A stretch of DNA of 64,000 bases from Phyllobacterium endophyticum (GTDB taxonomy: Bacteria; Pseudomonadota; Alphaproteobacteria; Rhizobiales; Rhizobiaceae): contig NZ_PGGN01000004.1 in the NCBI RefSeq assembly GCF_003010935.1, positions 496,001 through 560,000 of the forward strand, read 5' to 3'. Shown one piece after another: positions 8,389-28,845 of the stretch. Numbering within the stretch: the first letter of the stretch is position 1; each line of letters starts with the position of its first letter. Under the pieces are notes generated by a model. That model was not told the origin of the DNA and did no database searches. It saw only the letters and a program-made list of their open reading frames with translations. Both the position numbers and the translations under genes were made by a program.

Positions 8389-8403
8389 CACGTGGGTTCC
8401 TGT

Positions 8404-8424
8404 GGAGGGGGCCCTGCTCCCTCC
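8404..8424 (+). promoter_or_regulatory. Stem-loop between binding-protein and permease genes
   Basis: GGAGGG and CCCTCC pair perfectly around a nine-base loop, followed by CTTTATT. It lies 16 bases after the binding-protein stop and well before the permease start. In mal-type operons such structures protect the upstream message or attenuate transcription, so that the binding protein is made in excess. That role is inferred here. Confidence 0.5.
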
Positions 8425-8545
8425 CTTTATTCTGCATGCCCGCGCTGAAAAGTGCGGTTCGAGCGGGCACGGCGCCCGACATTAACTTCGCGCATCGTGA
8501 TGCTCATTCTGGCATCCGGCGCCGAACTCTCGAAGGAGGAGAGTA

Positions 8546-9451: not shown

Positions 9452-9452
9452 G

Positions 9453-10412: not shown

Positions 10413-10612
10413 CCTTCCGCGCTCTGAACCAGAAATACCTGGAGCCCGGGTCGCAGTACCTGATGATCTTCGGCATCATCGCGTTGTGCCAACCCTGGAA
10501 CCTGTTGCTCCATCGCTATGGGCTGACTTTAACGCTCATCGGACTGATCGCCTTCATGGTAGCGACCAAGATTCCGCGGCCGGAGCAACGAGCCGAAGGC
10601 AGTGAGTCATGA
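10409..10612 (+). CDS. Small two-helix membrane protein of the importer operon
   Basis: A 67-residue protein with two hydrophobic segments around residues 18-32 and 38-52, a connecting QPW turn and a charged tail. It starts inside an ATGA overlap with the permease stop, and its own TGA overlaps the ATPase start, so it is tightly coupled. The second ABC operon encodes a matching protein at 25042-25248 in the same position; both share a QP(W/F) and a final K(I/F)P. It may be a transporter accessory or assembly subunit, comparable in position to extra small membrane proteins of glycerol-type ABC operons. The function is unknown. Confidence 0.75.
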   Translation: MTFRALNQKYLEPGSQYLMIFGIIALCQPWNLLLHRYGLTLTLIGLIAFMVATKIPRPEQRAEGSES

Positions 10613-13866: not shown

Positions 13867-14568
13867 TCACGCATAGGCGGCGGCTGTCGCCGCCCCGCCG
13901 ATGAGACCCTTCCAATAACTTTCCGCACCCTGAAGATGCGCGTTCATAAGTGCCTGGGCGAGATTGCCGTCGCGGGCAAGCAGCGCCTCGTAAATGCGGA
14001 TATGTTCCTCATGCGAGCGGCGGCTGCGGGCGCTCTCACTAAAATAAATCGGCAGACGCTGCTCGCCCATCATGTAGTAGACACTGCAAACGCGATAAAA
14101 GACGCTATTCTTGGTGGCCCGGACGATCTCCAGATGGAAATCCCGGTCCTCGCGCGCCAGTCCCTCGCCCGCGGCCAGCCTCTTCTCGGACGCGGTCAGT
14201 ATCTCGCGCAGGCGCTGGTAGTTCTCCTCGGTCGCCCGCAGGCAGGCGAGTTCCGCGGCCCTGATCTCGTGGATCTTGCGAAGCTCCACCGTCTCGTAAA
14301 TTAGAATCGGATCAAGCGGCACCCCAGCGCGGGCAAAAAGTGCCATGGCGTCTACGCTTACTTCCGTGGTCGTCAGGTAGATCCCTGACTTGGCGCGGCG
14401 CTCGACGATACGCATCGCTTCGAGGATCGCCAGCGCCTCGCGTATTTGGCCGCGGCTGACGCCGAAATGCTCCGCAAGCTCCCGCTCGGAAGGGGTACGG
14501 CCGTTGCCGCTTGAATTTGAAAACAGATATGCGGCGAGATCCGCGAGGAGGGAATTTTCTTTCATCAT
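13867..14568 (-). CDS. GntR family regulator, FCD (FadR/VanR) type
   Basis: A 233-residue regulator. The N-terminal winged helix contains TPSERELAEHFGVSRGQIREAL; the rest is an all-helical FCD domain with metal-binding candidates in RDFHLEIV and SHEEHIRIYEAL. Its ATG at 14568 overlaps the stop of the upstream gene (TGATG), indicating translational coupling; a GTG at 14571 is possible. FCD GntR proteins favour TGGT-N3-ACCA operators, and such boxes precede the ABC operon (6926) and the epimerase genes (16951). It is therefore the likely pathway regulator. Confidence 0.88.
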   Translation of the reverse strand: MMKENSLLADLAAYLFSNSSGNGRTPSERELAEHFGVSRGQIREALAILEAMRIVERRAKSGIYLTTTEVSVDAMALFARAGVPLDPILIYETVELRKIHEIRAAELACLRATEENYQRLREILTASEKRLAAGEGLAREDRDFHLEIVRATKNSVFYRVCSVYYMMGEQRLPIYFSESARSRRSHEEHIRIYEALLARDGNLAQALMNAHLQGAESYWKGLIGGAATAAAYA

Positions 14569-15737
14569 CACTGTCTTTGTGCGTGAGCCTCCAAGAACCG
14601 CTGATTGATCGTGAAGCCGAGGCCGGGTTTATCGGGAATCTCTATCATACCGTCTTTGACCGACACAGTATCCTCGACAAGATCATGAATCATTGGATTC
14701 GCGCCCAACGAATATTCGACCACGAAGCTCGACGGAGAAGCCGCGCACAGGTGCAGGCCCGAGAAGAAACATGGCGCACCGGCCCATAGATGTGGCGCGA
14801 ACCGAAGGTTGAAGGCACTGGCGAGCGAACTGATCCGCATGGCCTCTGTGATTCCACCGCAGAACGCCGGATCGGGCTGGAATATATCGGCGGCCCGTAA
14901 CATGGCAAGATCCCGGAATGCAAAACGCGTCGCCTCGCTCTCGCCCGCGGCGATCGGCACGTTGCCCGCCGCTCGCACCTCCGCCATGCCCTGCTTGTCG
15001 TCCGCGATCACCGGTTCCTCAAACCAGGCGAGGTCGCAATCCGCGACCATCTGGATGAAGCGCTTGGCCTCGGCCACCGTATAAGTACCATGTGCATCTA
15101 CCATAAGGTCAACGTCCGGGCCGATTGCCTCGCGAGCCGCCCGCACCCGCGAAGCCGAGACATGCGGCGCATGGTCCATCGCGCCGACGCGCATTTTGAC
15201 CGACTTGAAGCCGCCTGCCGCTATATAGGACCGTAGCTGATCGCCAATCCGTTCCGAGCTCTCCCAGCCGCCTGAGGCATAGGCGGGTAACCTGTCCGCT
15301 TTGCGACCACCCAGAAGCTTCCAAATAGGAACGTCAAGCGACTTGCCGAGAATGTCCCACAACGCTATGTCGACAGCGCTGATCGCAGCGACGGACAGGC
15401 CGCGCCGTGAGATCTCCGGCATGGCGTGACCCGAGATCGCCGCCATCTCATGGCGTACGCCATTGTAAAGCATTTCCCATATGGCGGAGATGTCGGCAGG
15501 ATCACGGCCGATGATCTTTGGCCCCACCTCGTAATTGAGCATATGCACCAGCGTGCCGTAGGTGCCTGCACTGCCGGCGGCATTCTTGCCCTCTCCCCAG
15601 CCGACGATGCCGTCGTTCGTTTCGATACGCACGATAGCGGCGTCGAAGGTCGTCAGCCGCCCGAAGTCGCTGCGGTGCTGGCGGCTCGTCTGGATGGGGA
15701 TCTTCACCCACCAGGCTTCTACGGTCTTGATGCGCAT
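14568..15737 (-). CDS. Enolase-superfamily enzyme (mandelate racemase / muconate lactonizing family)
   Basis: A 389-residue enolase-superfamily protein. The capping domain is followed by a barrel with a KMR motif at strand 2 (the usual KxK or KxR position). Metal ligands appear in VDAHG (Asp), WFEEP (Glu) and AAGES (Glu), and a His is in FAPHLWAG. This pattern fits sugar-acid dehydratases or racemases of the mandelate racemase group. It sits between the epimerase and the GntR gene in the leftward operon, suggesting dehydration of an aldonic-type acid. The exact substrate is not determinable. Confidence 0.87.
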   Translation of the reverse strand: MRIKTVEAWWVKIPIQTSRQHRSDFGRLTTFDAAIVRIETNDGIVGWGEGKNAAGSAGTYGTLVHMLNYEVGPKIIGRDPADISAIWEMLYNGVRHEMAAISGHAMPEISRRGLSVAAISAVDIALWDILGKSLDVPIWKLLGGRKADRLPAYASGGWESSERIGDQLRSYIAAGGFKSVKMRVGAMDHAPHVSASRVRAAREAIGPDVDLMVDAHGTYTVAEAKRFIQMVADCDLAWFEEPVIADDKQGMAEVRAAGNVPIAAGESEATRFAFRDLAMLRAADIFQPDPAFCGGITEAMRISSLASAFNLRFAPHLWAGAPCFFSGLHLCAASPSSFVVEYSLGANPMIHDLVEDTVSVKDGMIEIPDKPGLGFTINQRFLEAHAQRQ

Positions 15738-15795: not shown

Positions 15796-16683
15796 TTACT
15801 TGATCAGCGGCAGGATCGTCTCGGCAGTGATCCGCATCTGATCGTCGTAGAACTTCTCGGTGAGAAGGCTCGAGCCGTGGTCCTGAATGAACTTCAATTG
15901 CTCCGGCGGGATGTCGACTGGGTTACGCTCCACCATGTCGGGATATTTCGCTGCCGGCGTGCGGTCAACAGGTGCGACAAATTCGTTCGTCACCGCGCCG
16001 TCGTAGCCGATCTCCTTCAACGTCGCGATGATTTTCGGCCAATCAAGTTGACCGAGCCCGGCGGCAAAGCGGGTGTTGTCGGCAATATGGAAGTCGAAAA
16101 GGCGTTTCCCAGTAAGCCGTATCGCCTCATACATGTCATCTTCCTCGATGTTAAGGTGGAAGGCATCGAGGCAAACACCGCAATTGGGGCTGACGGCATC
16201 GGCAAGCGCCAACGCCTGGGCGGCACGATTGAAGAAATAGGTTTCGAAACGGTTGAGCGGCTCAACCGCAATGCGCACGCCCTTCTTTTGGGCATGGGAA
16301 AAACACTCTTTGGTGGCATCAACCACCCACTTCCACTCTTCTTCCTCCGTCCCATCTGGAACTACCTTGCCAACAGTTGCCGGCACGAGTGTGACGATCT
16401 CACCATCGAGTTCACTGACCATCGAGATGACGCTCTTGACGTAGTCCACTGACTTTGCGCGCTGGCCCTCGTCCTTGGCGGCAAGGTTGCGTTCGCCAAG
16501 CGTAAGTGTGACGGCGCCCCAGCAACGGATGCCGTACTCTTTGAGCAGAGCGCGGGTCTCCTTGACGTCGTACTGTGCCGGCTCTCCGGATATCTCGATG
16601 CTCTCGTAGCCATACTTCTTTATGCGTTTTAACGTAACGGCGAGCGGTTCTGCCCGCATCCAGTTATGTGTCGAAAGATGCAT
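15796..16683 (-). CDS. Sugar phosphate isomerase/epimerase (AP-endonuclease 2-type TIM barrel)
   Basis: A 295-residue xylose-isomerase-like TIM-barrel protein. Metal-ligand candidates are Glu in VEPLNRFET, Asp in CLDAFHLNIEE, His in DFHIAD and Glu in VTNEF. This layout resembles ketose 3-epimerases and hydroxypyruvate-isomerase relatives. It is paralogous to the divergent gene at 17012-17863, with matching NRFE and FHxNIEE blocks. It is the first gene of the leftward catabolic operon. Confidence 0.85.
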   Translation of the reverse strand: MHLSTHNWMRAEPLAVTLKRIKKYGYESIEISGEPAQYDVKETRALLKEYGIRCWGAVTLTLGERNLAAKDEGQRAKSVDYVKSVISMVSELDGEIVTLVPATVGKVVPDGTEEEEWKWVVDATKECFSHAQKKGVRIAVEPLNRFETYFFNRAAQALALADAVSPNCGVCLDAFHLNIEEDDMYEAIRLTGKRLFDFHIADNTRFAAGLGQLDWPKIIATLKEIGYDGAVTNEFVAPVDRTPAAKYPDMVERNPVDIPPEQLKFIQDHGSSLLTEKFYDDQMRITAETILPLIK

Positions 16684-16963: not shown

Positions 16964-17011
16964 TTCAGGGCAAATCAGAATACTGGGTCGGCGCGTTCTA
17001 GGGGTGAAATC

Positions 17012-17863
17012 ATGAAGGTCGGAATGTGCATGTTCCTGTGGACGACGAATGTCAGCTCCAAGCATGAGGCATTGTTGCGCGACATCAAGGCCACCGGATT
17101 TGACGGTGTCGAGATTCCAGTCTTTTCGGGCACAAGCGATGACTATCGCAAACTGGCGTCCCTTCTAGACTTAATCGGCCTGGAACGCACCGCCGTTTCT
17201 GCGATGGGCGACCCCTCGATGAACCTGATAGCGCCCGACGTAGCGTCACGCAGACGCGGGATCGACTACATGAAATGGGCAATTGACTGCAGCAATGCGC
17301 TAGGCGCCACGACGCTGAGCGGACCGCTGCATTCGACGCTCGGCCAATTCTCCGGAAGCGGGCCGAGCCCCGCGGAACTCAAGCGCTCGGTCTCCTCGCA
17401 ACGTACCATTGGTGATTATGCGGCAAAACACGGTGTCACGATCGGACTTGAGGCGTTGAACCGCTTCGAATGTTACCTGTTCAACACGATGGACGCACTC
17501 GCGGCTCACATCGATGCTGTGGGACATCCGAATATCCGCGCCATGTACGACACCTTTCATAGCAATATCGAGGAGGCCGACCCCATCGGCGCCTTCATGC
17601 GAAATAGCGACCGTATCGTTCATGTCCATATCTCGGAGAACGACCGCGGCGTGCCAGGACGTGGCAACATTCCCTGGGCGGAAACATTCCAAGCGCTGCG
17701 CGCAAGCGGCTATGACGGCTGGCTGACGATCGAGGCCTTCGGTCGGGCGCTCAAGGAGCTTGCCGCCGCGACAAAAGTCTGGCGCGATTTTTCCGAGACG
17801 CCGGAAGCGGTCTATCGGGAAGGCTACCGCCACATTCGCGATGGATGGCAAGCGGCCGCATGA
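17012..17863 (+). CDS. Sugar phosphate isomerase/epimerase, second paralogue
   Basis: A 283-residue TIM-barrel protein beginning MKVGMCMFLWT. Metal-ligand candidates are Glu in LEALNRFEC, Asp in MYDTFHSNIEE, His in VHVHISEND and Glu in TIEAFG. It belongs to the ketose 3-epimerase group and is paralogous to the divergent 15796-16683 gene. A longer frame starts at 16862 but runs over the GntR box; the ATG at 17012 follows GGGGTG and gives the family's usual start. It is a single-gene rightward unit ending convergent with the dhaK gene. Confidence 0.85.
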   Translation: MKVGMCMFLWTTNVSSKHEALLRDIKATGFDGVEIPVFSGTSDDYRKLASLLDLIGLERTAVSAMGDPSMNLIAPDVASRRRGIDYMKWAIDCSNALGATTLSGPLHSTLGQFSGSGPSPAELKRSVSSQRTIGDYAAKHGVTIGLEALNRFECYLFNTMDALAAHIDAVGHPNIRAMYDTFHSNIEEADPIGAFMRNSDRIVHVHISENDRGVPGRGNIPWAETFQALRASGYDGWLTIEAFGRALKELAAATKVWRDFSETPEAVYREGYRHIRDGWQAAA

Positions 17864-18116: not shown

Positions 18117-19124
18117 TCAGTGCTTCGCGCAACCCCACTGCAACACGGCTGTCGAAATAGGATCGTCCCAAAAACGCAGCCCTTTCTCGTCAAACATTGA
18201 CAACGTCACGGAGAGACCGGCCATATCGAGCGAGGTCACGTAAGTTCCCACCAGTGATCTCGCTACGCTGATGCCTCTGGCTTCAAACAGCCGACGGACA
18301 ATATTGTAAATGAGATAGAGTTCTGGCGTCGGCGTACCTCCGAATCCGTTTACCATAATCAACGCACGGTCGGAGTTCTGCAGCTCTATGTCCGCAAGAA
18401 TGTTATCGCAGATCATGCGAGCGATAGTGTTGGCATCGACCAGTTTCTGCCTGGAATGCCCCGGTTCGCCGTGTATCCCGACTCCGACTTCCATCTCGTC
18501 CGGATTCAGCACAAAGGTGGACCGGGCAGTGTCAGGAACGGTAACGCCACCAAGCGCCACGCCCATCGTGCGAATCCGCTTGTTCAAACGGTCACCAAGT
18601 GCCTTCAATCCAACCAAGTCCATACCAGCCTCAGCAGCCGCACCGAGAATCTTCTCCACGACGAGAGTACCGGCGACGCCCCTCCTGCCGGAGCTTCGCC
18701 CCGCGCCTTGCACCGCGATTTCGTCGCTTACAACGACTGTTTCGGTACGATGCCGCCCCGTCACCGCCTCCGCAGCCATTTCGAAGTTCATCAAGTCCCC
18801 GTCATAATTCTTCACGATCAGCAAACATCCCGCTCCCGTGTCCGTCTCTTCGACGGCGGCAATAATCTGGTAAGGCGTCGGAGAGGTAAAGATATGACCG
18901 GTACAGGCCGCATCCAGCATGCCTGGTCCCACGAAGCCAACATGCATTGGCTCATGACCCGCTCCTCCGCCCGATATGACCGCAACTTTTCCCGGCGTAA
19001 GATGCCGCCGCCTGACGAACTTACGGGCCGAGCCGAACATAACCAGACGATCGTGGGCCAGAACGAAACCTTCGAGGCTTTCGGCAACCATGGACTCGGC
19101 CTTGTTCATGAATTTCTTCATCAT
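18117..19124 (-). CDS. dhaK: Dihydroxyacetone kinase subunit DhaK (free-standing)
   Basis: A 335-residue DhaK-type protein. It has the substrate loop SGGGAGHEPMH, the KNYDGDLMNF block, and GIHGEPG, whose His forms the covalent hemiaminal with the ketone substrate in this family. It lacks a DhaL domain, so it needs a phosphoryl donor subunit, most simply the DhaL at 20614-21228. The start at 19124 follows GGAGGGG and overlaps the stop of a small upstream frame (ATGA). It is the last gene of the long leftward operon. The substrate may be dihydroxyacetone or a C4 ketose such as erythrulose. Confidence 0.9.
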   Translation of the reverse strand: MMKKFMNKAESMVAESLEGFVLAHDRLVMFGSARKFVRRRHLTPGKVAVISGGGAGHEPMHVGFVGPGMLDAACTGHIFTSPTPYQIIAAVEETDTGAGCLLIVKNYDGDLMNFEMAAEAVTGRHRTETVVVSDEIAVQGAGRSSGRRGVAGTLVVEKILGAAAEAGMDLVGLKALGDRLNKRIRTMGVALGGVTVPDTARSTFVLNPDEMEVGVGIHGEPGHSRQKLVDANTIARMICDNILADIELQNSDRALIMVNGFGGTPTPELYLIYNIVRRLFEARGISVARSLVGTYVTSLDMAGLSVTLSMFDEKGLRFWDDPISTAVLQWGCAKH

Positions 19125-19369
19125 GCCCCTCCACCGGCATCGAATTGTTCAAGCATCGCGCGAGCGGTCATGACCAAGCCATTCTGAGATGATACCAGGA
19201 TCATGACTAACGATCTCGTCGAATTGTAGAGAGCGTCTGCCGGGTTGCAAGGATCAAAGACGATGCTGCCCATGTGTAGGCAATATCGTCCGCATGTTGA
19301 GAGTGCTCCAACGTTGGAGCTTGAACAGAGTACAAGACCTTCCCTCCTGTCCTCGTCTATTTCTGGCAT
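19121..19369 (-). CDS. Possible small protein between the HTH gene and dhaK
   Basis: An 82-residue frame that I do not recognise. Support for it being real is contextual: AGGGGCGAA lies just before its ATG, it begins 28 bases after the HTH gene stops, and its TGA overlaps the dhaK ATG. It has four cysteines in the first 41 residues and a mixed C-terminal part (SLVMILVSSQNGLVMTARAM). If it is not translated, this stretch is simply a 273-base gap carrying the dhaK ribosome binding site. Confidence 0.4.
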   Translation of the reverse strand: MPEIDEDRREGLVLCSSSNVGALSTCGRYCLHMGSIVFDPCNPADALYNSTRSLVMILVSSQNGLVMTARAMLEQFDAGGGA

Positions 19370-19397
19370 TTCGCCCCTATCAAACTTGGCCCCTGCC

Positions 19398-19808
19398 CTA
19401 GTCTGAATTTCCTAAAAGTGTTGCGATCTTTTGGACAAAATCTGTGATCGCTTCATCCATCAGTCGATTTTTCTTTTCGTCTCCAAGGTCCGGAACTATT
19501 AGGGACAGCGATCTCAGTCCGTCGGAACCGCCGGACTCGGGCAATTTTCCCGGATGCGCGGCATCATAGGCCGCCACAAACTCTTCCTGCTCGGTTGGAC
19601 TAAAGTGACAAACTCTAAAAATCGTCGCCAGATGGCGGGCAGGCAATGGTGTGGAATAAGTTGGGCTTGTAATCTGGGTAACAAAACTGCGGTGTTTGCC
19701 CAGCGCCACAGCAAGGCGCTGTCGGGTACCTGAGGGGCGATTGTCGATGATCTGAGCCAGAATAGTTTTGTAGGCCACGACGGGATCTTCAGTGACTTCC
19801 CGTGTCAT
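19398..19808 (-). CDS. HTH-like DNA-binding protein of the dihydroxyacetone kinase operon
   Basis: A 136-residue protein. The segment TRQRLAVALGKHRSFVTQITSP resembles a helix-turn-helix of the XRE type, with the recognition helix near residues 40-52. The C-terminal part is helical and charged. It lies within the leftward operon between the HPr-like and DhaK genes, 66 bases after the former, and is the only evident regulator in that operon. It may therefore act as the local regulator; its ligand and sites are unknown. Confidence 0.65.
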   Translation of the reverse strand: MTREVTEDPVVAYKTILAQIIDNRPSGTRQRLAVALGKHRSFVTQITSPTYSTPLPARHLATIFRVCHFSPTEQEEFVAAYDAAHPGKLPESGGSDGLRSLSLIVPDLGDEKKNRLMDEAITDFVQKIATLLGNSD

Positions 19809-19874
19809 GCCAATTCTCCACCAGGCGGCGAGCAGTGGGCTACGCTAAACTCCAATCCTGTAGGGGCAGGCACG

Positions 19875-20219
19875 CTAGGCATTTCGGCCTTCGACTTTGC
19901 CCTCGTCGAAATTGTGTTCGACCAGTTGCTTCAACGCCGCGACGGCTTCTGCCGCACCAATTCCGTCGGCTCGAATCTTCAGAACGGAACCTTTCCGGAT
20001 ATTGGCTCCCATAACTTTCACAATGCTCTTGCCATTCAGCCAGATGCTGTTTCCGTTCACTTCTATTTCTATGGTGCAGGGAAAAGATTTGGCAAGACGC
20101 GTGAAGATGACGGATGGACGGGCATGCAACCCAGTACCGTGTACGACTTCGATTTCCGTCTGCCGCTGCGCCATGGCGCGATCGACCTGACTTATCCTCG
20201 CATCCCGTTTGTCGCTCAT
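19875..20219 (-). CDS. HPr-family phosphocarrier protein
   Basis: A 114-residue protein with an HPr fold. The active-site segment is GTGLHARPS, with His32 as phosphorylation site and Arg34 in its usual place. The later GKSIVKVMGA matches the regulatory-serine region of HPr (Ser65 here). The first 15 or so residues are extra compared with typical HPr; an internal ATG at residue 16 would give a standard length. However, the longer start sits in an ATGA overlap with the dhaM gene. It probably passes phosphate from Enzyme I to the adjacent EIIA. Confidence 0.85.
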   Translation of the reverse strand: MSDKRDARISQVDRAMAQRQTEIEVVHGTGLHARPSVIFTRLAKSFPCTIEIEVNGNSIWLNGKSIVKVMGANIRKGSVLKIRADGIGAAEAVAALKQLVEHNFDEGKVEGRNA

Positions 20220-20617
20220 GAGGGTGAGAGTTCCTCGGCTGTAGCCACAACCTTGGCGAGCGGAGCCCCACCTGACGCCTCGGCCGCAGCAATGACTGCA
20301 CCCTCGACCAAGGGTGAATTGCAGATGGCAACTAGCCGGGAACGGGGTTCGCCCAGCATTTCAATTGCCATTTCGCTGTTGGTCTCCGCGCCTCCGAGAT
20401 CAACGAACACGGCAACCCCATGATCGGACCACGCTGCCTCTATGGCGGCAAGAATTCCAGCTGCATTGGTTCCGAGACCACCCTCTGGATTGCCTCCGCA
20501 CCATGAAAGCGGCACGCGGTCGCCAACCATCTGCCGCACCATGTCGGCAGTGCCCTTCGCAACCAGTGGCGAGTGCGACACAATCACGATACCCACATTT
20601 GTAAACTTGCCCTTCAT
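20216..20617 (-). CDS. dhaM: DhaM-type EIIA phosphotransfer subunit of dihydroxyacetone kinase
   Basis: A 133-residue EIIA (mannose-type) domain. The active-site region VIVSHSPLVAKG places His15 as the phosphoryl acceptor, as in DhaM; GGAETNSEMA and the following segment match the fold. E. coli DhaM has EIIA, HPr and a partial Enzyme I in one chain; here EIIA and the HPr-like protein are separate genes and no Enzyme I gene lies in the window. It overlaps dhaL by four bases and the HPr gene by four. It would recharge ADP bound to DhaL. Confidence 0.87.
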   Translation of the reverse strand: MKGKFTNVGIVIVSHSPLVAKGTADMVRQMVGDRVPLSWCGGNPEGGLGTNAAGILAAIEAAWSDHGVAVFVDLGGAETNSEMAIEMLGEPRSRLVAICNSPLVEGAVIAAAEASGGAPLAKVVATAEELSPS

Positions 20618-21228
20618 GCCGGACGGTACTCCTCCAAGTAGCGGCAGATGGCCGTTGTCAGATGAGCGCAGCTTGATGCGCCCGGATCGATATGGCCAAC
20701 GGAACGATCCCCAAGAAACGAAGCACGTCCGCGCATTGCTTTCATATCGGCCGTCAGTTCAGCAGACAAAACTGCCCTTTTGGCTATGTTGATCAGGGTC
20801 GATCGCCGCATGATTTCAGCCTGAATGGGGTAAAGAACGTCAAGCAATGTTTTGTCACCTGCACCGGCGCGTCCGCGCCTGGCCACTGCTTCGATTGCTT
20901 CGCCGAAGATCAGAGCGAAATCGCCCTCATTCTCCAATATGCTGAGCCGCCGCCCCAGCTCTATCAGCAAGGTCCCGTACAAGGGCCCAGCCGCGCCGCC
21001 AACACTCATGACAAGCGCCACGCCAATCAGCTCGATTGCCTGTGGCAACGCCAGGCAGCAAAGCCTTTCACGATCAAGATATACCGCCTCGCAGCCGCGC
21101 CGCATGTTCGTTCCGTGATCTCCGTCGCCGATGGCCCGATCGAGCTCACACAGATCATCAGCATGGATCGTGATGGCGTCGTGGCACGCTTCAATCAGCC
21201 CAAGGATCAGCGCGCGATCAGTCTGCAC
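20614..21228 (-). CDS. dhaL: Dihydroxyacetone kinase subunit DhaL (free-standing)
   Basis: A 204-residue DhaL protein. The metal/ADP-binding motif is intact: Asp30, Asp35 and Asp37 in LDRAIGDGDHG. Further typical blocks are SVGGAAGPLYGT and GAGDKTLLDVL. It overlaps the Dak fusion gene by 11 bases and dhaM by four, so the three are coupled. In PTS-type kinases DhaL holds ADP, which EIIA rephosphorylates; it would work with the DhaK at 18117-19124. Confidence 0.9.
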   Translation of the reverse strand: MQTDRALILGLIEACHDAITIHADDLCELDRAIGDGDHGTNMRRGCEAVYLDRERLCCLALPQAIELIGVALVMSVGGAAGPLYGTLLIELGRRLSILENEGDFALIFGEAIEAVARRGRAGAGDKTLLDVLYPIQAEIMRRSTLINIAKRAVLSAELTADMKAMRGRASFLGDRSVGHIDPGASSCAHLTTAICRYLEEYRPA

Positions 21229-22882
21229 CGACTCTACCGTCGATCAGCTTTGCCGCAGTCTCGAAAGCAGCAGCGGTGGCCACAGCTCCCGGGTCGGCTA
21301 CACCGGCGAGATCTCTTGCTCCTACATATGATGCGCGGCCAGCATTTGCCCTGGTCATTTCCATGGTGGCGTTGGCGCCCGCACGAGCCGATCGGGCAGC
21401 GTCGGAGAGCCCCCTTGCCGCGAAGGCTCGCAATGCCGGATCAAGGGCGTCGACCATGGTTCTGTCACCCGGCCTGGCGCCGCCGTAGAAAGTCATGCGG
21501 TCGAGACCTGCAAGCAAAGCGGTCGGTAGAGTGCCCGTCTCCGTCATCTCCTTGGCGGCTGCCGTAAAAAAAATTGAGAGCAGAACGCCGCTTGATCCAC
21601 CCATACTGGTGGCCAAAATTCTGCCGATCGCTGCCAATGTTTCGGCGGTGTCAGCGAGCGGCAACGACTTTACCTTGGCAAGTACACTTTGTGCCCCGGC
21701 TGCGACCGTCGATCCCGTATCGCCATCTCCAGCGCGGGCATCCAGATGATTGAGCTCCGTTTCGAGCGATATCAGGTGTTGACATATCCCGGTCACCAAT
21801 TCTTCGGTCAACGGATCGTGGCTCGCTACCGCGATGGAGTTCCCAATCGGAGCTTCGGGCACGGGAAGTACATTCAGGCCATGTCGTGGCACTGGCGGAG
21901 TCCACGCCCGAAGGTCGACGGGGTGGGCAAGCGCCGTCTCACGTTCTGCATCGAGCTTGATGAGCGACAACGAAAATCCGTTCATGTTGAGCGCTGTCAT
22001 CATTGGCGAGGGCCCGATCACCAGTCTCACGCGATCCGCAAGTGAAGACGCAAGAACATCATGGGCAATGAGGCCCATTTCCAGGGGCGGAACAGCTCCA
22101 AGATTGTTGATTAGCAACGCATAATCGCCCGCCCCAGGCAGAGCTGCCGCGAGCCGCTCCGCCATGATCCTTACTATTTTTCCGGCCTCCTGCAGCTCGA
22201 AGCGCTCGACGCCTGGCTCGCCGTGAATACCAAGGCCAAGTTCGCCCTCGTCAGCGCCGAGACGTTGTTCCTGAACCTGGCCCGGGATCGAGCATGTTGA
22301 CAGCGAGACACCCAACGAGACAATCTCGCCGGCCGCTGCGGCAGCAGATGCAGCTACATCTTCAACACTATCGCCACGTTCGGCGAGAAAACCTGCGATC
22401 TTGTGAATGAAGAGCGTCCCCGCGACACCGCGCGGCTGAGGAAGATCGGGAAGGGCGATATCATCGGCGACGATCACCATTTCCACCTTGAATCCTTCTG
22501 CCCGCGCTCTTTCAGCGGCAAGTCCGAAGTTCAGCCGGTCTCCGGTGTAATTCTTGACGACGAGCAGGCAACCTTTCGGCCCCGTGACTGCACGGATCGC
22601 TGTAAGCACCGCATCAACGCTGGGAGAGGCAAAAATCTCGCCCGATATGGCGGCCGTCAGCATGCCCCTTCCGACAAACCCGGCGTGGGAGGGCTCGTGC
22701 CCCGCACCTCCGCCTGATATGACGGCGACCTTGGATTTATCCCAGTCCGCCCGCAGAATGACCTTGATATCCGGATAGCTGTCCAGTCGCGCCAGCATTC
22801 CCGGACGACTGGTCAGCAAAAGACCATCGAGGGCCTCGGTGACAATGTTCTCCCTGCGGTTGAAAAAATGTTTCATGGGCAT
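21218..22882 (-). CDS. Dihydroxyacetone kinase, DhaK-DhaL fusion (ATP-type)
   Basis: A 554-residue protein. Residues 1-330 form a DhaK module: SGGGAGHEPSH (His62), KNYTGDRLNF (Asp115), and GIHGEPG with the covalent-binding His220. Residues about 355-554 form a DhaL module with the metal-binding Asp381, Asp386 and Asp388 in DARAGDGDTG. This is the single-chain layout of ATP-dependent dihydroxyacetone or ketotetrose kinases. It lies 58 bases after the ATPase gene of the importer operon and overlaps dhaL. Presence beside a complete separate DhaK/DhaL/EIIA set is unusual. Confidence 0.92.
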   Translation of the reverse strand: MPMKHFFNRRENIVTEALDGLLLTSRPGMLARLDSYPDIKVILRADWDKSKVAVISGGGAGHEPSHAGFVGRGMLTAAISGEIFASPSVDAVLTAIRAVTGPKGCLLVVKNYTGDRLNFGLAAERARAEGFKVEMVIVADDIALPDLPQPRGVAGTLFIHKIAGFLAERGDSVEDVAASAAAAAGEIVSLGVSLSTCSIPGQVQEQRLGADEGELGLGIHGEPGVERFELQEAGKIVRIMAERLAAALPGAGDYALLINNLGAVPPLEMGLIAHDVLASSLADRVRLVIGPSPMMTALNMNGFSLSLIKLDAERETALAHPVDLRAWTPPVPRHGLNVLPVPEAPIGNSIAVASHDPLTEELVTGICQHLISLETELNHLDARAGDGDTGSTVAAGAQSVLAKVKSLPLADTAETLAAIGRILATSMGGSSGVLLSIFFTAAAKEMTETGTLPTALLAGLDRMTFYGGARPGDRTMVDALDPALRAFAARGLSDAARSARAGANATMEMTRANAGRASYVGARDLAGVADPGAVATAAAFETAAKLIDGRVGAD

Positions 22883-22940
22883 TTTCCAGTCTTTCGTCTT
22901 CTACACGTGTTGAACAAACCATTCGGATCGCGGTAATCCC

Positions 22941-23948
22941 TCAAACCACCCTGTTTCCATCCGCACCGAAATAAAGAGGATTCCTGAGCGCTAGGCCAAT
23001 CGGATCTCCCGGCTTTACTGGCAGACGTGGATTGGCCAAGGTGGTCAGCTTGCAGTCGCCGAGCCGTATATGCAGGTGATTCTGGTCTCCGAGATGCTCC
23101 ACCCAAGCGACGTGTGCATTGACATGTCCGCCTAGCGTGATGTCCAGATGTTCGGTCCGCGCCCCGATTGTTTGTGTACCTGCCGGGATCTTGCTGTCCG
23201 GAAGAAGGTTAGCCGGAAAAAGGTTGATGTGCGGCTGACCAAGACGTGCAGCGACATGAACATTGGCCGGATTGCTGTAGATCTCTCGTGGCGTTCCAAT
23301 TTGTGCCAGTCGCCCCTCAGTGAGAATGCCGATGCGATCGGCCATTGTCATGGCTTCGATCTGATCATGTGTCACGTAAAGAAGCGTTGAACCGAGTTCT
23401 TTCTGGATACGTTTGAGTTCCAGCCTGAGATCGGCGCGAAGCTTGGCGTCCAACGAGGAAAGCGGCTCGTCCATGAGATAGATTGCAGGGCGGCGTACAA
23501 GCGCCCGGCCGATGGCGACCCGCTGCATTTCACCTCCAGAAAGACGGGTCGAGCGGTTGTCAAGCTTGTGGTCGATGCGCACCATCCGTGCGACCTCCCG
23601 CACCCGCCGGTCGATTTCATTCTTGTCGAGACGGCGTGCCGGCGACCGCAGGGGAAAGGCTAGGTTGTCGTAGACCGACAGGTGCGGATAAAGCGAATAT
23701 TGCTGAAAGACGAATGCGACATCTCGGCCCGCCGGCGCTTCCTTCGCCACATCGTATCCGCCGATGAGAATGCGGCCATGATCGGGGCGCTCCAACCCGG
23801 CAATCAGGCGCAGGGTAGTGGTCTTGCCGGCTCCGGTGGGTCCTAGAAGCACCACGCATTCCCCGTCGGCGATCACCAGATCCAGATCGGAAACGGCAGG
23901 GGTTTCACCGAAATTTTTGTTGATCCCTTGCAGGATGACTTCAGCCAT
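22941..23948 (-). CDS. ABC polyol/sugar importer ATPase B (MalK family)
   Basis: A 335-residue ATPase with Walker A GPTGAGKTTT, signature LSGGEMQRVAIGRA, Walker B LMDEP and VTHDQIEAMTMAD, then a short TOBE-type domain. I chose the start at 23948 (MAEVILQG), which overlaps the previous gene by eight bases; the much longer frame to 24173 is out-of-gene extension. It matches ATPase B of the first operon in its LSGGE signature. It precedes the Dak fusion gene. Confidence 0.92.
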   Translation of the reverse strand: MAEVILQGINKNFGETPAVSDLDLVIADGECVVLLGPTGAGKTTTLRLIAGLERPDHGRILIGGYDVAKEAPAGRDVAFVFQQYSLYPHLSVYDNLAFPLRSPARRLDKNEIDRRVREVARMVRIDHKLDNRSTRLSGGEMQRVAIGRALVRRPAIYLMDEPLSSLDAKLRADLRLELKRIQKELGSTLLYVTHDQIEAMTMADRIGILTEGRLAQIGTPREIYSNPANVHVAARLGQPHINLFPANLLPDSKIPAGTQTIGARTEHLDITLGGHVNAHVAWVEHLGDQNHLHIRLGDCKLTTLANPRLPVKPGDPIGLALRNPLYFGADGNRVV

Positions 23949-25038
23949 GACGATGCTCCACAAAGCGGGATGACGCAACTGACCTGCCCGAGGTGCAGTC
24001 AAAAAGGGACAGTTTCTCGCGATTGAGTTCAAGCCCGACAGTTTCGCCGATACGGAAGTTCTGGTCGGCCGGCACCCGGGCCTTGACAAGTCCCTTGCCC
24101 ATCTCCACCGCGACGATCTGGTTAGTCCCATGATACTCGCTGCCAAAAACTGCACCGCGCAAGGGCGAAGCATCGTTGAAGCTTATATCTTCAGGCCGCA
24201 CGCCAAGCGCAAGTTCGCCTTCTGCCAGATCCTGGTGGATTTCAGGCATGGAAATTTCAACGCCATCGACCACGACGGATCGCGTGCCCTTTTGCAGGCC
24301 TGCCGTAAACCGCAGGAAGTTCATTGGCGGCGAACCGATAAAATCAGCCACATACATGGTTGCCGGGCGGTTGTAGATTTCCTGGGGCGTGCCGAATTGT
24401 TCGATTACCCCATGGTTCATCACTGCGATCTTATCGGCCATCGCCATTGCCTCCAACTGGTCGTGTGTCACATAGACCGTAGTGGCACGGATCCTGTTGT
24501 GCAGTTCGCGCAGCTCGCGAACCATCAGATCGCGAAATTCCGCATCCAGCGTGCCTAGGGGCTCATCCATAAGAAAGCACTTGGGACGCCGGACGATTGC
24601 CCTTCCGAGCGCCACCCGCTGACGATCGCCGCCCGCAAGCCCCGACACCGATCTGTCCAGAATATGGTCTATCTGCAGGAGCTTCGCCGTTTCCTCGACG
24701 CGTGCGCGGATCTCTGCTTTGGCAACACCTTGGGCAAGCAATGGAAACCCGATGTTCTTACGTACATTCATGTGCGGATAAAGCGCAAAGAGCTGAAATA
24801 CAAACGCGATATCCCGCTCCCTCGCCCGGTTGAAGGTGACGTCTTCACCGCCAAGAAATATCTTGCCGTCGGTGGGCAGTTCAAGTCCCGCGATCATCCG
24901 CAGCGTTGTTGTCTTGCCGCAGCCCGACGGGCCAAGCAGCGCGAGGAATTCGCCGTCATGCACAACGAAGCTCGAATTTTCCACGGCGCTGAAGGCGCCG
25001 AATTGCTTGCGAAGTTTTTCTATTCTGATCTCTGCCAT
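23941..25038 (-). CDS. ABC polyol/sugar importer ATPase A (MalK family)
   Basis: A 365-residue ATPase. Walker A is GPSGCGKTT, Walker B FLMDEP and the switch VTHDQLEAMAMAD. The signature reads LAGGDRQRVALGRA instead of the usual LSGGQ, comparable to LSGGD in ATPase A of the first operon. A C-terminal TOBE-type domain follows. It starts three bases after the small membrane protein gene and overlaps ATPase B. Confidence 0.92.
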   Translation of the reverse strand: MAEIRIEKLRKQFGAFSAVENSSFVVHDGEFLALLGPSGCGKTTTLRMIAGLELPTDGKIFLGGEDVTFNRARERDIAFVFQLFALYPHMNVRKNIGFPLLAQGVAKAEIRARVEETAKLLQIDHILDRSVSGLAGGDRQRVALGRAIVRRPKCFLMDEPLGTLDAEFRDLMVRELRELHNRIRATTVYVTHDQLEAMAMADKIAVMNHGVIEQFGTPQEIYNRPATMYVADFIGSPPMNFLRFTAGLQKGTRSVVVDGVEISMPEIHQDLAEGELALGVRPEDISFNDASPLRGAVFGSEYHGTNQIVAVEMGKGLVKARVPADQNFRIGETVGLELNREKLSLFDCTSGRSVASSRFVEHRHG

Positions 25039-25041
25039 CGC

Positions 25042-25248
25042 CTACTCCGGGAACTTTGAAACGATGATGAACATGATCGTTCCGGCCAGCAGCGTAACAA
25101 GCGACCAAGTGTAGAAGATCAGGAGGAAGGGCTGGAACAGCATCAGGAATCCAAGGCCGATCAGGCCAGTCGCAATGTTTTCCATGGGACCGCGTCTGAT
25201 AAAAAACGGTCGCTTGGGCTTTGCGGGAGCCGGTCTTTGTACCGTCAT
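25042..25248 (-). CDS. Small two-helix membrane protein of the second importer operon
   Basis: A 68-residue protein with a basic N-terminus (KPKRPFFIRRG) and two hydrophobic segments around residues 24-42 and 46-63 joined by a QPF turn, ending SKFPE. It occupies the same place as the 67-residue protein at 10409-10612: after permease 2 (ATGA overlap) and before ATPase A. Shared features are the QP(W/F) turn and the terminal K(I/F)P. It is probably an accessory membrane subunit; function unknown. Confidence 0.75.
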   Translation of the reverse strand: MTVQRPAPAKPKRPFFIRRGPMENIATGLIGLGFLMLFQPFLLIFYTWSLVTLLAGTIMFIIVSKFPE

Positions 25249-26198
25249 TTGCGTACAGCTCCAAAAGTGATACCGCGCAACAGCTGCTTGCGCAGGAGGA
25301 TGGTGAACACCAGGATCGGTACGACAAAGATCGTCGTACCGGCAGCGACTGCCGGCCAGTCCTGCCCGCCCTCACCGATAATGGTCGGAATGAACGGCGG
25401 AGCAGTCTGGGCTGCTCCGGATGTCAAGAGCACCGCGAAGGCGTATTCATTCCAGGCAAAGATGAGGCAGAAGATGGCCGTTGCGGCGATGCCCGTGGTC
25501 GCCTGCGGCAGGACGACCTTGAAAAACGCCTGCATGCGCGTGTAGCCGTCGATCATGGCTGCCTCTTCGTATTCGCGCGGAATTTCGTCGATGAAACCCT
25601 TCAGGAGCCAGACGGCCAGCGAGACGTTTACAGCCGTGTAAAGCAGGATCATGCCAAGCGCCGTGTCAGACAGGCCAAGCTGCCGATACATCAGATAAAT
25701 AGGGATTGCGACGGCAATGGGCGGCATCATTCTCGTCGAGAGAATAAAGAACAAGAGGTCCTCGGCCAGCGGAATTTTGAAACGCGAAAAACCGTAAGCT
25801 GCAAACGTTCCAAGGGAAACCGCGAGGAACGTCGAACCAAAGGCGATCACCAGCGAGTTTTGGAAGCGCGGCCAGTAGTTTGAAGCCCCGGCGATGACCA
25901 TGTTGCGACTGCGCGTAATCTCATCGCAGGTACTCGTAGGTTCGCCTAGCGAAGCGATATAGTCCGGAGTTTGCCGTGTGCGGGTTGTGAATAGGTTGCA
26001 ATAACCTTCAAGGGTTGGCTGGAATACGATTTTCGGCGGGTAGCTAATGGAGTCCGGCGGAGACTTGAAGCTCGTCAGAACGATCCATAGCAGCGGGATC
26101 ATCGTGATCACAGCATAGATGATGACGATGGACGCAGCGATGCGTTTTGATGTCCGGCTCGGCTCGACGACAGAGTGGGCAGTGCTGACAGAGCTCAT
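25245..26198 (-). CDS. ABC polyol/sugar importer permease 2 (MalG type)
   Basis: A 317-residue permease with an EAA loop YEEAAMIDGYTRMQAFFKVVLPQA, almost the same as permease 2 of the first operon. A large hydrophilic loop of about 70 residues follows the first helix and contains NLFTTRTRQTPDYIASLGEP. It overlaps permease 1 by four bases and the small membrane protein by four. Confidence 0.9.
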   Translation of the reverse strand: MSSVSTAHSVVEPSRTSKRIAASIVIIYAVITMIPLLWIVLTSFKSPPDSISYPPKIVFQPTLEGYCNLFTTRTRQTPDYIASLGEPTSTCDEITRSRNMVIAGASNYWPRFQNSLVIAFGSTFLAVSLGTFAAYGFSRFKIPLAEDLLFFILSTRMMPPIAVAIPIYLMYRQLGLSDTALGMILLYTAVNVSLAVWLLKGFIDEIPREYEEAAMIDGYTRMQAFFKVVLPQATTGIAATAIFCLIFAWNEYAFAVLLTSGAAQTAPPFIPTIIGEGGQDWPAVAAGTTIFVVPILVFTILLRKQLLRGITFGAVRK

Positions 26199-27154
26199 CG
26201 CTGTTTCACCTTGTTGAGGGCTTTCACGTAGATGTTGGCAAGACCGAACACCGCGACGAACAGAATAATGGCGAAGGCGGAAGCGCGGCCGGTCCGCCAG
26301 CTTTCAAATGCCTCGCGTTTCAGCGTGATCGAGGCGACTTCGGTTGTTGAACCCGGGCCCCCGCCCGTCAGAAGAGTTACCATGTCAAACATCTTGAAGT
26401 TTTCGATGCCACGGAAAAGTATCGCCAACATGATGAAAGGCAGCGCCATCGGCAACGTGATCGACCAGAATTGGCGCCAGAGCGAAGCGCGATCCACCTC
26501 AGCGGCCTCATAGATATAGTCGGGAATCGAACGCAGACCGGCCAGGCAGATCAGCATGACATAGGGCGTCCACATCCAGGTATCTACGATGATAATCGCC
26601 CAGGGTGAAAGCCGAACCGAACCCAGCATTTCGAATGAGGACGGCGGAATTCCAGTCAGGAAAGACACGATGTGATTGAAAAGGCCAATCTGCGGCTGAT
26701 AAAGAAATCGCCAGAAATTGCCGACGACGGCTGGCGACAGCATCATCGGAACAAGGATGATGGTCGTCCAGAATGCGTGACCGCGGAATTTCCTATCAAT
26801 CAGATAAGCGAGAGAAAATCCGATAAGCGTCTGCAGCAGAATCGTCCAGAAGACAAAATGTGCGGTTGTCTGCATAGCCTGCCAGGTGTTCGGATCGTTC
26901 AGCACCCGGCTATAATTGCTAAGGCCAACATTCTCGAGTGCAGCATTGGGCCGGTTCGCCCGAAAGTTCGTAAAGGAAAGGTAGATTGCCCATATGAGCG
27001 GGAAGATGTTGACGGCCAACAGCAACGCAATGGCCGGGGTAATGAAGAGCCAAGCCATGGAACGATCGGATAGGCCACGGATTCTCGAAGCTATGGGCGC
27101 GGGCGCGGCACGGGCAACAGCCTCACCCAAACTGGTGGAACTTGTATCTGTCAC
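26195..27154 (-). CDS. ABC polyol/sugar importer permease 1 (MalF type)
   Basis: A 319-residue permease with about six membrane segments and the EAA loop YEAAEVDRASLWRQFWSITLPM. The start is a GTG at 27154 preceded by AGGTGAG. It lies about 100 bases after the binding-protein gene, with a stem-loop in between, and overlaps permease 2 by four bases. It is paralogous to 8546-9451. Confidence 0.9.
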   Translation of the reverse strand: MTDTSSTSLGEAVARAAPAPIASRIRGLSDRSMAWLFITPAIALLLAVNIFPLIWAIYLSFTNFRANRPNAALENVGLSNYSRVLNDPNTWQAMQTTAHFVFWTILLQTLIGFSLAYLIDRKFRGHAFWTTIILVPMMLSPAVVGNFWRFLYQPQIGLFNHIVSFLTGIPPSSFEMLGSVRLSPWAIIIVDTWMWTPYVMLICLAGLRSIPDYIYEAAEVDRASLWRQFWSITLPMALPFIMLAILFRGIENFKMFDMVTLLTGGGPGSTTEVASITLKREAFESWRTGRASAFAIILFVAVFGLANIYVKALNKVKQR

Positions 27155-27191
27155 GGACTCACCTGAATTTCAAAGTATCGCATTTGAAGAA

Positions 27192-27222
27192 ACTGCCCGG
27201 CATGTTTTCAGATCCGGGCAGT
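27192..27222 (-). promoter_or_regulatory. Stem-loop between binding-protein and permease genes
   Basis: ACTGCCCGG and CCGGGCAGT form a perfect nine-base stem around a 13-base loop. It lies in the 103-base gap after the binding-protein stop, the same place as the structures at 8404-8424, 46587-46686 and 55986-56077. A role in differential expression within the operon is inferred. Confidence 0.5.
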
Positions 27223-27257
27223 CACTGCAGCACCGGGTCGTCTGAGGCGCCGGAGCT

Positions 27258-28583
27258 TTAGAGCTTGCCGTCGTCCTTGAAGACCTCGGTCCAGTCTTTG
27301 ACAAGCCCGTCAAGCGCCTCTTTCGCTGTGCCCTTGTCGGCAACGACATAGTCGTGAAGGCGCTTCTGCATAGCTTGCAAAAGGATGGCGTAGGACGGTT
27401 CCTGCCAAAAATCCTGCACCTGGTTCATGGCTACCAGGAAGTCGGCGGCAAACGGCTGGCTCTCCGTAAAAGTAGGGTCGTTCAGGACTGACTTGTGCAC
27501 GGCGTATCCGCCAAGCGACCACCATTTCTTCTGAACGTCCGGCTGCGCAAACCATTTGATATAGGCAAGAGCACCATCCATGTTGTCTGTGTTGGCGACG
27601 ACGGAAATTCCCTGCCCGCCCAGCGTCGATGCCGCAACCTTCTCTTTCGGGTTGACGAAGAACCCGATCTTGTCTCCGCCGACCTTCTCGTCCTTGTAGA
27701 GGCCAGGGAAGAAGGCGAACCAGTTCATCGCCATGGCCACTTGTCCGGATTTGAATGCGTCGAGGCTTTCGCCCATATAGGCGTCGGTATATCCGGGCGG
27801 CGTGCAGCATTTGTAGAGTTTCTTGTAGGCTTCAAGCCCAGCTATCGCTTCCGGAGAGTTGACAGCACCCTCCATGTCATATTTGCCCGGCGTATTTTCA
27901 TATTTGAAGCCATAGGGATATAGAGCCGATGTCGAGCCCATCGTAATGCCTTCGGAAGCGCGCTCGGTGAATATCGCGGCGCCATAAACCTTCTTCCCGT
28001 CAATTTCGCGGCCATTGAAGAACTCGGCGACCTCCAGCAGTTCATCCCAGGTCGTTGGGGCTGCCAGATCACGATTGTGCTTCTTTTTGAATTCGGCCTG
28101 AATTTCAGGCTGGCCAAACCAGTCCTTGCGGTAAAACCATGCATTGGCATCGCCCATTGCCGGAAGCGCCCAGTAGTTTGGCGTGCCTTTCGGCCATGTT
28201 GCATAGGCGTTGACCGCTGCATCGGCGAAATCACTCATCTTGATCCCCTCTTTGTCGAAGAAATCATTGAGCTTCACGTAATAACCGTTTTCCGCTGAAC
28301 CGCCGAGCCACTGGCTGTCGCCAATCAGAAGATCGCAGAGCTTGCCACCTGAATTGAGTTCATTGAGGATGCGGTCGGCGAAATTCGGCCAGGGCACGAA
28401 CTCGAACTTCATTGTCGTTCCGCTTTGAGAAGTAAAATCTTTGGACAGCTCAACAAGTGCGTTGGCGGGGTCCCAGGCCGCCCAGCAGAGGGTCAATTCA
28501 TCGGCCTTCGCCAGGTTCGGCGCTGCGCCTAACAAGATCAGCGCCGAAGTTGCCCCGAGTAGGGCCTGCTTTATCGTTTTCAT
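27258..28583 (-). CDS. ABC polyol/sugar importer periplasmic binding protein
   Basis: A 441-residue type 1 solute-binding protein with a Sec signal peptide (MKTIKQ, hydrophobic core, cleavage near LAKADE). It shares ordered blocks with the protein at 7078-8388: WDPAN, GDSQWL, the YYV segment and LGGQGISVV. Two adjacent cysteines occur in LYKCCTPPG. The start at 28583 follows GGGAGGAATGC; a further in-frame ATG upstream is less likely. It heads the importer/dihydroxyacetone-kinase operon, so the ligand is probably a polyol or ketose. Confidence 0.92.
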   Translation of the reverse strand: MKTIKQALLGATSALILLGAAPNLAKADELTLCWAAWDPANALVELSKDFTSQSGTTMKFEFVPWPNFADRILNELNSGGKLCDLLIGDSQWLGGSAENGYYVKLNDFFDKEGIKMSDFADAAVNAYATWPKGTPNYWALPAMGDANAWFYRKDWFGQPEIQAEFKKKHNRDLAAPTTWDELLEVAEFFNGREIDGKKVYGAAIFTERASEGITMGSTSALYPYGFKYENTPGKYDMEGAVNSPEAIAGLEAYKKLYKCCTPPGYTDAYMGESLDAFKSGQVAMAMNWFAFFPGLYKDEKVGGDKIGFFVNPKEKVAASTLGGQGISVVANTDNMDGALAYIKWFAQPDVQKKWWSLGGYAVHKSVLNDPTFTESQPFAADFLVAMNQVQDFWQEPSYAILLQAMQKRLHDYVVADKGTAKEALDGLVKDWTEVFKDDGKL

Positions 28584-28845
28584 GCATTCCTCCCAGATAC
28601 ACAAGCGACACCGCGCCGCTTTTAGACATCATCCTTTGTTCCCTTGTCCTCACACGATCTCTGCGCCGTGTTGAGTAATCTTGTTTAGCATGAACGCATC
28701 TACTGAACATTTCAAGCATGAATCGTTGCTGCAGCGCACACCGCACGAACGACCACATGGCTTCAGGGGAAAAAACGTCGTCGACTTGGTGCTGGAATGG
28801 ACGGGACCGCCACTGGCGTGATTGTTTGGGAGACTATTGCCTGTG

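Follow-up and report, generated by a model that had tools for sequence, protein, structure and literature searches.

In Escherichia coli, DhaM is a fusion of EIIA, HPr and part of Enzyme I; the system uses the regulator DhaR and is not known to have an ABC importer. The DhaKLM system of Lactococcus lactis draws on the general Enzyme I and HPr of the cell and is known to have neither a dedicated HPr nor an ABC importer. An operon-encoded Enzyme I is not known to be required of DhaKLM in general. A fusion of DhaK and DhaL is found in the solved chain 1un9, presumably the ATP-dependent dihydroxyacetone kinase of Citrobacter freundii. Rhizobial genes have been described as well. In Bradyrhizobium diazoefficiens the cluster blr3566-blr3577 is co-induced (PMC5017801). 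RL2903 of Rhizobium leguminosarum 3841 is an HPr that has been attributed to a dihydroxyacetone PTS; its mutant resembled the wild type in colony morphology and in the transport of amino acids (PMC3665714). Our locus L113 is the operon in this strain, and RL2903 is presumably its HPr. Among the matches listed from openly licensed PMC literature there was no account of an Enzyme I loss or of the operon in Phyllobacterium.

Here we examined a leftward operon on the minus strand (18117-28583) of a 64,000-nucleotide stretch of contig NZ_PGGN01000004.1 of Phyllobacterium endophyticum (the window). A first-pass annotation had read it as an ABC importer, an ATP-type DhaK-DhaL fusion, DhaL, EIIA (DhaM), HPr, an HTH protein and DhaK, in this order. 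Gene positions and protein families agreed: Dak1, Dak1+Dak2, Dak2, EIIA-man/DhaM and HPr were assigned far above chance by Pfam and NCBIfam profiles. The importer consists of a solute-binding protein (27258-28583; SBP_bac_8/SBP_bac_1) with solved sugar-binding proteins as distant relatives, two permeases (26195-27154 and 25245-26198; both BPD_transp_1) and two ATPases (23941-25038 with ABC_tran, OB_MalK and TOBE_2; 22941-23948 with ABC_tran and TOBE_2). This composition, with a MalK-like ATPase and two ATPases in all, fits an ABC sugar importer of what we take to be the CUT1 type. Between the second permease and the first ATPase lies a 68-residue ORF (25042-25248), membrane-type by eye, whose start overlaps the permease stop; no Pfam family matched it. 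Another ORF of 82 residues (19121-19369) was considered as an operon gene and rejected. It matched no Pfam family, had no counterpart in the loci of relatives and is probably not a gene.

Operons of this kind are already known. Leaving the fusion aside, the operon corresponds to the Bradyrhizobium cluster as far as its genes are listed (PMC5017801): both have, in common order, a solute-binding protein, two permeases, a small gene (bsr3569, likewise with a permease gene on one side and an ATPase gene on the other), two ATPases, DhaL, EIIA, HPr, one hypothetical protein and DhaK. The fusion is present in the window, yet it is not among the genes listed there for blr3566-blr3577. Conversely, blr3566-blr3577 has an Enzyme I between HPr and the hypothetical protein and L113 also carries one, whereas the window operon does not. 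The latter is thus a variant of the rhizobial form, distinguished by the missing Enzyme I.

The operon encodes two sets of kinases, and the earlier assignment of two donor types held. Separate DhaK, DhaL and EIIA-type DhaM constitute a PTS-dependent DhaKLM gene set, as in E. coli. The best alignment of the free DhaK (18117-19124; Dak1) was with DhaK chains of the PTS type from E. coli; its score fell just below the NCBIfam DhaK cut-off (404.0 versus 406.25 bits). The free DhaL (20614-21228), whose 5' end overlaps the 3' end of the fusion gene, passed TIGR02365 (178.2 bits, cut-off 138.3) and matched E. coli DhaL chains. The DhaK-DhaL fusion (21218-22882; Dak1+Dak2) aligned over its whole length with 1un9 (E 1.2e-154), and both active sites are present. 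At 535.6 bits it remained below the cut-off for the ATP-type glycerone kinase (574.95); by its sequence it is a near relative and is not filed as an equivalog. Differently from 1un9, it shares its operon with a PTS-type set. As had been claimed, the key residues are visible in both sets: the His and Asp motifs of DhaK, DhaL and the fusion line up with the solved chains, and the catalytic motifs are kept. These residues, like those aligned in DhaM and HPr, we take to be the catalytic or phosphorylated sites.

EIIA and HPr are indeed separate genes. DhaM (20216-20617) consists of the EIIA domain only, like the solved chain 3ct6 (131 residues), which we assume to be L. lactis DhaM. It matched solved DhaM chains and passed TIGR02364, a model spanning 473 positions, with 133.4 bits (cut-off 98.25). 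The HPr-like phosphocarrier (19875-20219; PTS-HPr, TIGR01003) has a GLHARP motif, and its phosphorylatable His was found in 18 of 18 aligned HPr sequences.

The first-pass annotation had noted that Enzyme I is missing. This is correct for the operon; the genome, however, has two Enzyme I genes elsewhere, and a comparison of loci indicates that the absence is a secondary loss because the relatives carry the gene in the operon. In each of the 37 family loci examined, the genes for HPr and the HTH protein are separated by an Enzyme I gene, which has its His, Arg and Cys motifs; of the 80 named loci, 75 carry the gene there as well. Within Phyllobacterium, seven of ten operons lacked it. In the window the gap between HPr and HTH is 66 bp and holds only a 25-residue ORF (19805-19882), overlapping HPr at its stop and HTH at its start; this leaves no room for an unrecognised Enzyme I. 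A stub ORF is at the same place in all six genomes of the window's clade, with differing point changes. The window stub is itself little like Enzyme I, and the link was made via aligned stubs of sister genomes with like starts. Relocation within the genome was also ruled out. Each of the seven genomes without the operon gene has two Enzyme I genes, one PtsP-sized and one of the size of an HPr-EI fusion, versus three in each of the three Phyllobacterium genomes that keep it. A tree grouping all operons without Enzyme I was rejected (p-AU 0.003 and 0.002); therefore, judged from the sequences, two losses are likelier than one. Instead of a second loss, Enzyme I may have been regained in P. brassicacearum and P. 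sophorae. No close donor for the P. brassicacearum gene was found among the family loci compared (at most 57% identity outside the genus).

The remaining genes have stayed under purifying selection after the loss. Five named loci without Enzyme I have all other operon genes, matched over nearly full length, and the phospho-histidines of HPr and DhaM are kept in six of six aligned loci of this type. Between the window and the named locus L076, dN/dS was 0.05-0.18 for the eight genes computed, at dS 0.38-0.69. An intact relay under selection, with its Enzyme I gone, argues that phosphate is probably taken from another cellular system. The candidates would be PtsP and an HPr-EI fusion that belongs to a sorbitol-type PTS. 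One of the two Enzyme I genes of P. endophyticum is such a fusion and adjoins sorbitol-type PTS genes; genes of both sizes were present in 20 of 20 Phyllobacterium genomes searched. The earlier suggestion that a nitrogen-type Enzyme I is needed therefore stands as one possible donor, yet not as the only one. Among family genomes with the operon, all 31 that lack an HPr-EI fusion keep the operon Enzyme I. Eight have the fusion: six of these keep Enzyme I, P. endophyticum lacks it, and in G073 the site was not read.

The reading we favour, with a probability of about 0.65, is that the operon serves uptake and phosphorylation of a short ketose (dihydroxyacetone or a closely related compound) and that the relay is now fed by another Enzyme I of the cell. 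The ABC importer would bring in the free ketose. The DhaK-DhaL fusion would phosphorylate it with ATP, and the free DhaK would do so with DhaL-ADP, recharged by phospho-DhaM, which in turn would be charged by phospho-HPr. In other rhizobia the dedicated Enzyme I would start this relay from PEP. In the lineage of the window, where its gene has shrunk to a stub, the phosphate would most likely come from the HPr-EI fusion or PtsP.

Might the substrate be a ketose of four or more carbons, for instance erythrulose, perhaps with a ketose 3-epimerase and with two kinases for two isomers? The sole hint comes from four of 36 family operons, where the slot of the fusion is occupied by a D-tagatose/D-psicose 3-epimerase-like gene, 73-76% identical to the tagatose/psicose-3-epimerase-like protein neighbouring the operon in the window. 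However, the other 32 slots are without such a gene, none turned up inside the seven named loci that are Phyllobacterium-like (L076-L082), and for both kinases the best alignments are with dihydroxyacetone kinases. A larger ketose thus appears doubtful. The downstream neighbours gave no substrate clue: no ORF family was common to more than 23 of the 112 loci with room. Several of the downstream clusters resemble antisense ORFs. On the other side, before the importer, more than 2 kb of sequence was available in only two loci.

Neither Pfam nor NCBIfam gave a family for the HTH protein (19398-19808). Its predicted fold (mean pLDDT 80.9) had XRE/Cro-type repressors as weak Foldseek matches (best E 0.17 with a probability of 0.98; no match reached E ≤0.001). 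Upstream of the solute-binding protein is an inverted repeat on the minus strand, TGTTcAGTA...TGCTAAACA (28682-28709), followed by an extra half site, TTACTCAACA (28669-28678). A like repeat precedes the solute-binding protein in 27 of 32 loci; it was from these loci that the pattern itself was derived. The pattern matched once in the window and never in 100 shuffles; in the genome it matched once, as did a reversed control pattern. The repeat is a likely operator, and the HTH protein probably binds there and is a possible regulator. One might then ask whether the fusion is the metabolic enzyme while DhaK, DhaL, DhaM and HPr inform the HTH protein about the ketose and the state of phosphorylation. 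The E. coli regulator DhaR is controlled by DhaK and DhaL; in the family loci the HTH gene adjoins DhaK, as it does in 11 of 13 further genomes with this gene from a class sample (DhaK is inverted in one), and HTH and phosphorelay genes were conserved after the loss of Enzyme I. Such a division of labour is nevertheless unlikely. The fusion is in 17 of the 36 family loci with the slot visible; the other 19 lack it in the operon and there the PTS set should therefore be the kinase, unless another serves. In addition, DhaK and DhaL kept their catalytic motifs.

Returning to the relay, the PTS set could be decaying, with Enzyme I lost first, the remainder idle and the ATP-type fusion sufficient. 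The probable two losses in one genus would agree with this, as would the presence of the fusion in 80 of 80 named loci and the greater change in HPr and DhaM. DhaM dN/dS was 0.135, 0.105, 0.209 and 0.046 in four pairs without Enzyme I versus 0.047, 0.039 and 0.022 in the three Enzyme I-bearing pairs with a value. HPr changed about 3.95 times as much on branches without Enzyme I as on those with it (other genes 0.70-2.02 times), in a short gene with about half of the changes in the N-terminal tail; this could reflect relaxed use rather than adaptation. Nonetheless, nearly full-length genes, low dN/dS at a dS of about 0.4-0.7 and the conserved phospho-histidines make decay quite improbable. Finally, an assembly or strain artefact, conceivable for a single gap in a single draft genome, is hardly credible when six genomes share a stub with different point changes and each of the seven without the operon gene has no more than two Enzyme I genes.

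We return to the rewired relay as the preferred reading. In its most specific form, a private phosphorelay would have lost its Enzyme I twice in one genus and would have been rewired to the HPr-EI fusion of the sorbitol-type PTS. Two HPr changes beside the phospho-histidine, I29T in the window's clade and L31F in the second lineage without Enzyme I, would then be compensating, and the stub would persist because it couples translation of HPr to that of the HTH gene. This combination is possible, yet tentative. We know of no described case of such an Enzyme I swap. Some of these closely related species keep the dedicated Enzyme I and others do not, but all have the same HPr, EIIA and kinase, so that donor specificity and PTS rewiring are testable.

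The gene order was sought in other genomes and is conserved across family and named loci. That the free genes travel together had been set beforehand as a test, and they do: 39 of 40 family genomes with DhaM also carry the HTH marker of the operon (247 genomes searched for each). With this marker widespread, in 39 of 247 family genomes, the operon is a plausible carbon-uptake route of soil and plant-associated bacteria. If the relay has been rewired to the HPr-EI fusion, ketose phosphorylation in P. endophyticum would depend on the sorbitol-type PTS.

The operon runs on the minus strand from a solute-binding protein gene (27258-28583) through genes for two permeases, a 68-residue ORF, two ATPases, a DhaK-DhaL fusion, DhaL, DhaM, HPr and an HTH protein (19398-19808) to DhaK as the last gene (18117-19124). 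Gene ends mostly overlap or stand close together. A clear protein family could be assigned to every gene but two, the 68-residue ORF and the HTH gene. The free DhaK is nearest to the PTS-type E. coli enzyme and the free DhaL to its E. coli counterpart. DhaM is most similar to DhaM chains that consist of EIIA only, and the fusion, over its full length, to chain 1un9. Because these families and nearest relatives fit, the first-pass annotation of a dihydroxyacetone-kinase-type operon with two kinases using different likely phosphate sources was borne out. Other carbohydrate genes were noted as well. The plus strand encodes a further ABC sugar importer at 7063-12794, with an SBP, two permeases and two ATPases, and near it are a mandelate-racemase-type enzyme (14568-15737) and two TIM-barrel epimerase-like genes (15796-16683 and 16979-17863). 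Elsewhere in the 5.5 Mb genome, on contig C6 (locus L036, 8741-10403), another DhaK adjoins an apparent DhaL and stands behind ABC importer genes, the DhaL and the ribose type of the importer being assigned by eye.

The HTH protein was used as operon marker. Its nearest named relatives are from Phyllobacterium species, in a search from which records of the own genome may be missing. The marker was present in 10 of 20 Phyllobacterium genomes searched and in 39 of 247 genomes of the family sample. Up to 20 kb was taken around it in 37 of these 39, i.e. leaving out the own genome and G073. The gene order was the same wherever the stretch was long enough, except in genomes G062 and G139 (loci L072 and L074), where close importer genes were not seen adjoining the kinase genes; loci L073 and L044 are truncated by contig ends. 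DhaM was found in 40 of the 247 genomes and 39 of those also carry the marker. Therefore, the PTS-type set accompanies the operon in the family. The slot of the ATP-type fusion can be seen in 36 family loci (L073 is too short to show it); 17 of these have the fusion, and four others have a tagatose/psicose-3-epimerase-like gene in its place. Among named relatives (best 80 of 400 loci) all 80 have the fusion. In the class sample 14 of 385 genomes, own genome counted, carry the marker. Reading 1.5 kb on either side of it in the other 13 genomes revealed an Enzyme I match in 12 and DhaK in 11, one of them inverted; the thirteenth had a marginal HTH match (E 6.5e-4) and neither Enzyme I nor DhaK within 1.5 kb. 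In G394 (L165) DhaK is inverted with respect to Enzyme I and HTH. In G289 (L161) the HTH homologue lies within a 1089-aa open frame and a DhaM match stands between Enzyme I and HTH, possibly a gene fusion or an altered gene order.

What is missing in the window's operon is Enzyme I. In relatives the HPr-HTH interval spans about 1.6 kb and encodes this enzyme (37/37 family loci, one cut by a contig end). All 39 sequences, from the 37 family loci plus two Enzyme I genes at other sites of the own genome, have the phospho-histidine; they also have the conserved Arg and Cys, which belong to two other motifs of the enzyme. Of the named loci (best 80 of 400), 75 have the operon Enzyme I; those without are from Phyllobacterium sp. 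KW56, P. trifolii, Ca. P. onerii, P. bourgognense and one Rhizobiales isolate. In the Phyllobacterium sample Enzyme I was absent from 7/10 operons and kept in three. Each of the seven genomes has two Enzyme I genes, each of the three has three. Five close genomes, like the window, retain a stub ORF of 22-26 residues. In these five it has an Enzyme I-like start (MAEMFRLQG or nearly) and ends at the HTH start or at most one base off. The window's stub has drifted, and its tie to Enzyme I runs only via the stubs of the five sister genomes. The seventh genome has a different junction in which the HPr frame extends into a short tail. A third Enzyme I, in an open frame of 832 aa, was seen in G632 (contig C3: 91401-91739), one of the Phyllobacterium genomes that do not carry the operon marker.

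Was Enzyme I lost once or twice? In a tree of ten operon proteins from 16 loci the second lineage lacking the enzyme stood farther from the window's clade than did the Enzyme I-bearing P. sophorae and P. brassicacearum. A constraint grouping all loci without Enzyme I was rejected both for protein data (p-AU 0.003) and for first and second codon positions (p-AU 0.002). The simplest reading of these trees is that two separate losses occurred; a single loss with a later regain might also account for them.

The own genome encodes two candidate phosphate donors. One is PtsP, which combines a GAF with an Enzyme I domain; the other is an HPr-EI fusion. The fusion gene is at 7441-9417 of locus L038 (2315-10899), beside genes for a sorbitol-type EIIBC, a regulator with a sugar-binding domain and TRAP transporters. 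Judged by Enzyme I domain and frame length, PtsP-sized and HPr-EI-sized genes were present in 20/20 Phyllobacterium genomes; the HPr-EI fusion was confirmed by sequence in the four shared with the family sample. Within the family 33/247 genomes have this fusion, as do eight of the 39 that carry the marker. Losses of Enzyme I were seen only in the genus where the HPr-EI fusion seems universal. Six operon-bearing genomes outside Phyllobacterium also have it, and the operon Enzyme I was retained in 5/5 that were read. We lean slightly to the HPr-EI fusion over PtsP as the putative donor of the relay.

The window was compared with L076, the locus of a named relative which also lacks Enzyme I. dN/dS was 0.09 for DhaK, 0.08 for HTH, 0.17 for HPr, 0.14 for DhaM, 0.18 for DhaL and 0.15 for the ATP-type fusion, at dS of 0.39-0.69; the set leaves out permeases and SBP, and several other locus pairs gave no value. 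The phospho-histidines of HPr and DhaM were intact in 6/6 aligned loci without Enzyme I. The rest of the relay has stayed under selection, while its own Enzyme I was probably given up twice. Two results speak against continued use. HPr changed about 3.95 times as much on three branches lacking the enzyme as on two bearing it (other ten genes 0.70-2.02 times), although part of the path without the enzyme is older than the loss. For DhaM, dN/dS of 3/4 pairs without Enzyme I exceeded that of Enzyme I-bearing pairs. The HPr residue three before the histidine is threonine in 5/5 aligned sequences of the window's clade and hydrophobic in 10/10 Enzyme I-bearing ones; the second lineage has a hydrophobic residue there, but a changed residue one before the histidine. 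With these small numbers, the changes in HPr and DhaM may reflect either adjustment to a new partner or a loosening of constraint.

An inverted repeat, TGTTtAGTaA-N8-TtACTaAACA, precedes the importer in 27 of the 32 loci whose sequence reaches far enough upstream (28682-28709 in the window), and the pattern had no match in L042, L043, L045, L046 and L075. It was absent from 200 base-shuffled copies of the upstream set, a test which overstates its strength because the pattern was composed after inspecting the same sequences and many loci are related. In the own genome the window's site was the sole match; a reversed control pattern also matched once. Since the HTH protein is the only conserved regulator-like gene seen in the operon, it is a natural candidate to bind this repeat.

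The operon is of a known kind in view of two precedents. In Bradyrhizobium, blr3566-blr3577 were co-induced in a mutant and were repressed in bacteroids; the genes are the same, but that cluster includes Enzyme I and no fusion is listed there (PMC5017801). RL2903, an HPr gene of R. leguminosarum 3841, was assigned to a dihydroxyacetone PTS; in the PTSNtr tests shown, the RL2903 mutant resembled wild-type (PMC3665714). Our analysis contributes the losses of Enzyme I, the stub, the presence of the fusion in some of the loci and the conserved repeat; no earlier report of them was found among the matches listed from openly licensed PMC papers. The operon described here is genuine, and for the most part its kind is an ordinary one. 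The interesting twist is a dedicated phosphorelay without an Enzyme I of its own, probably given up twice, while what is left is still under selection.
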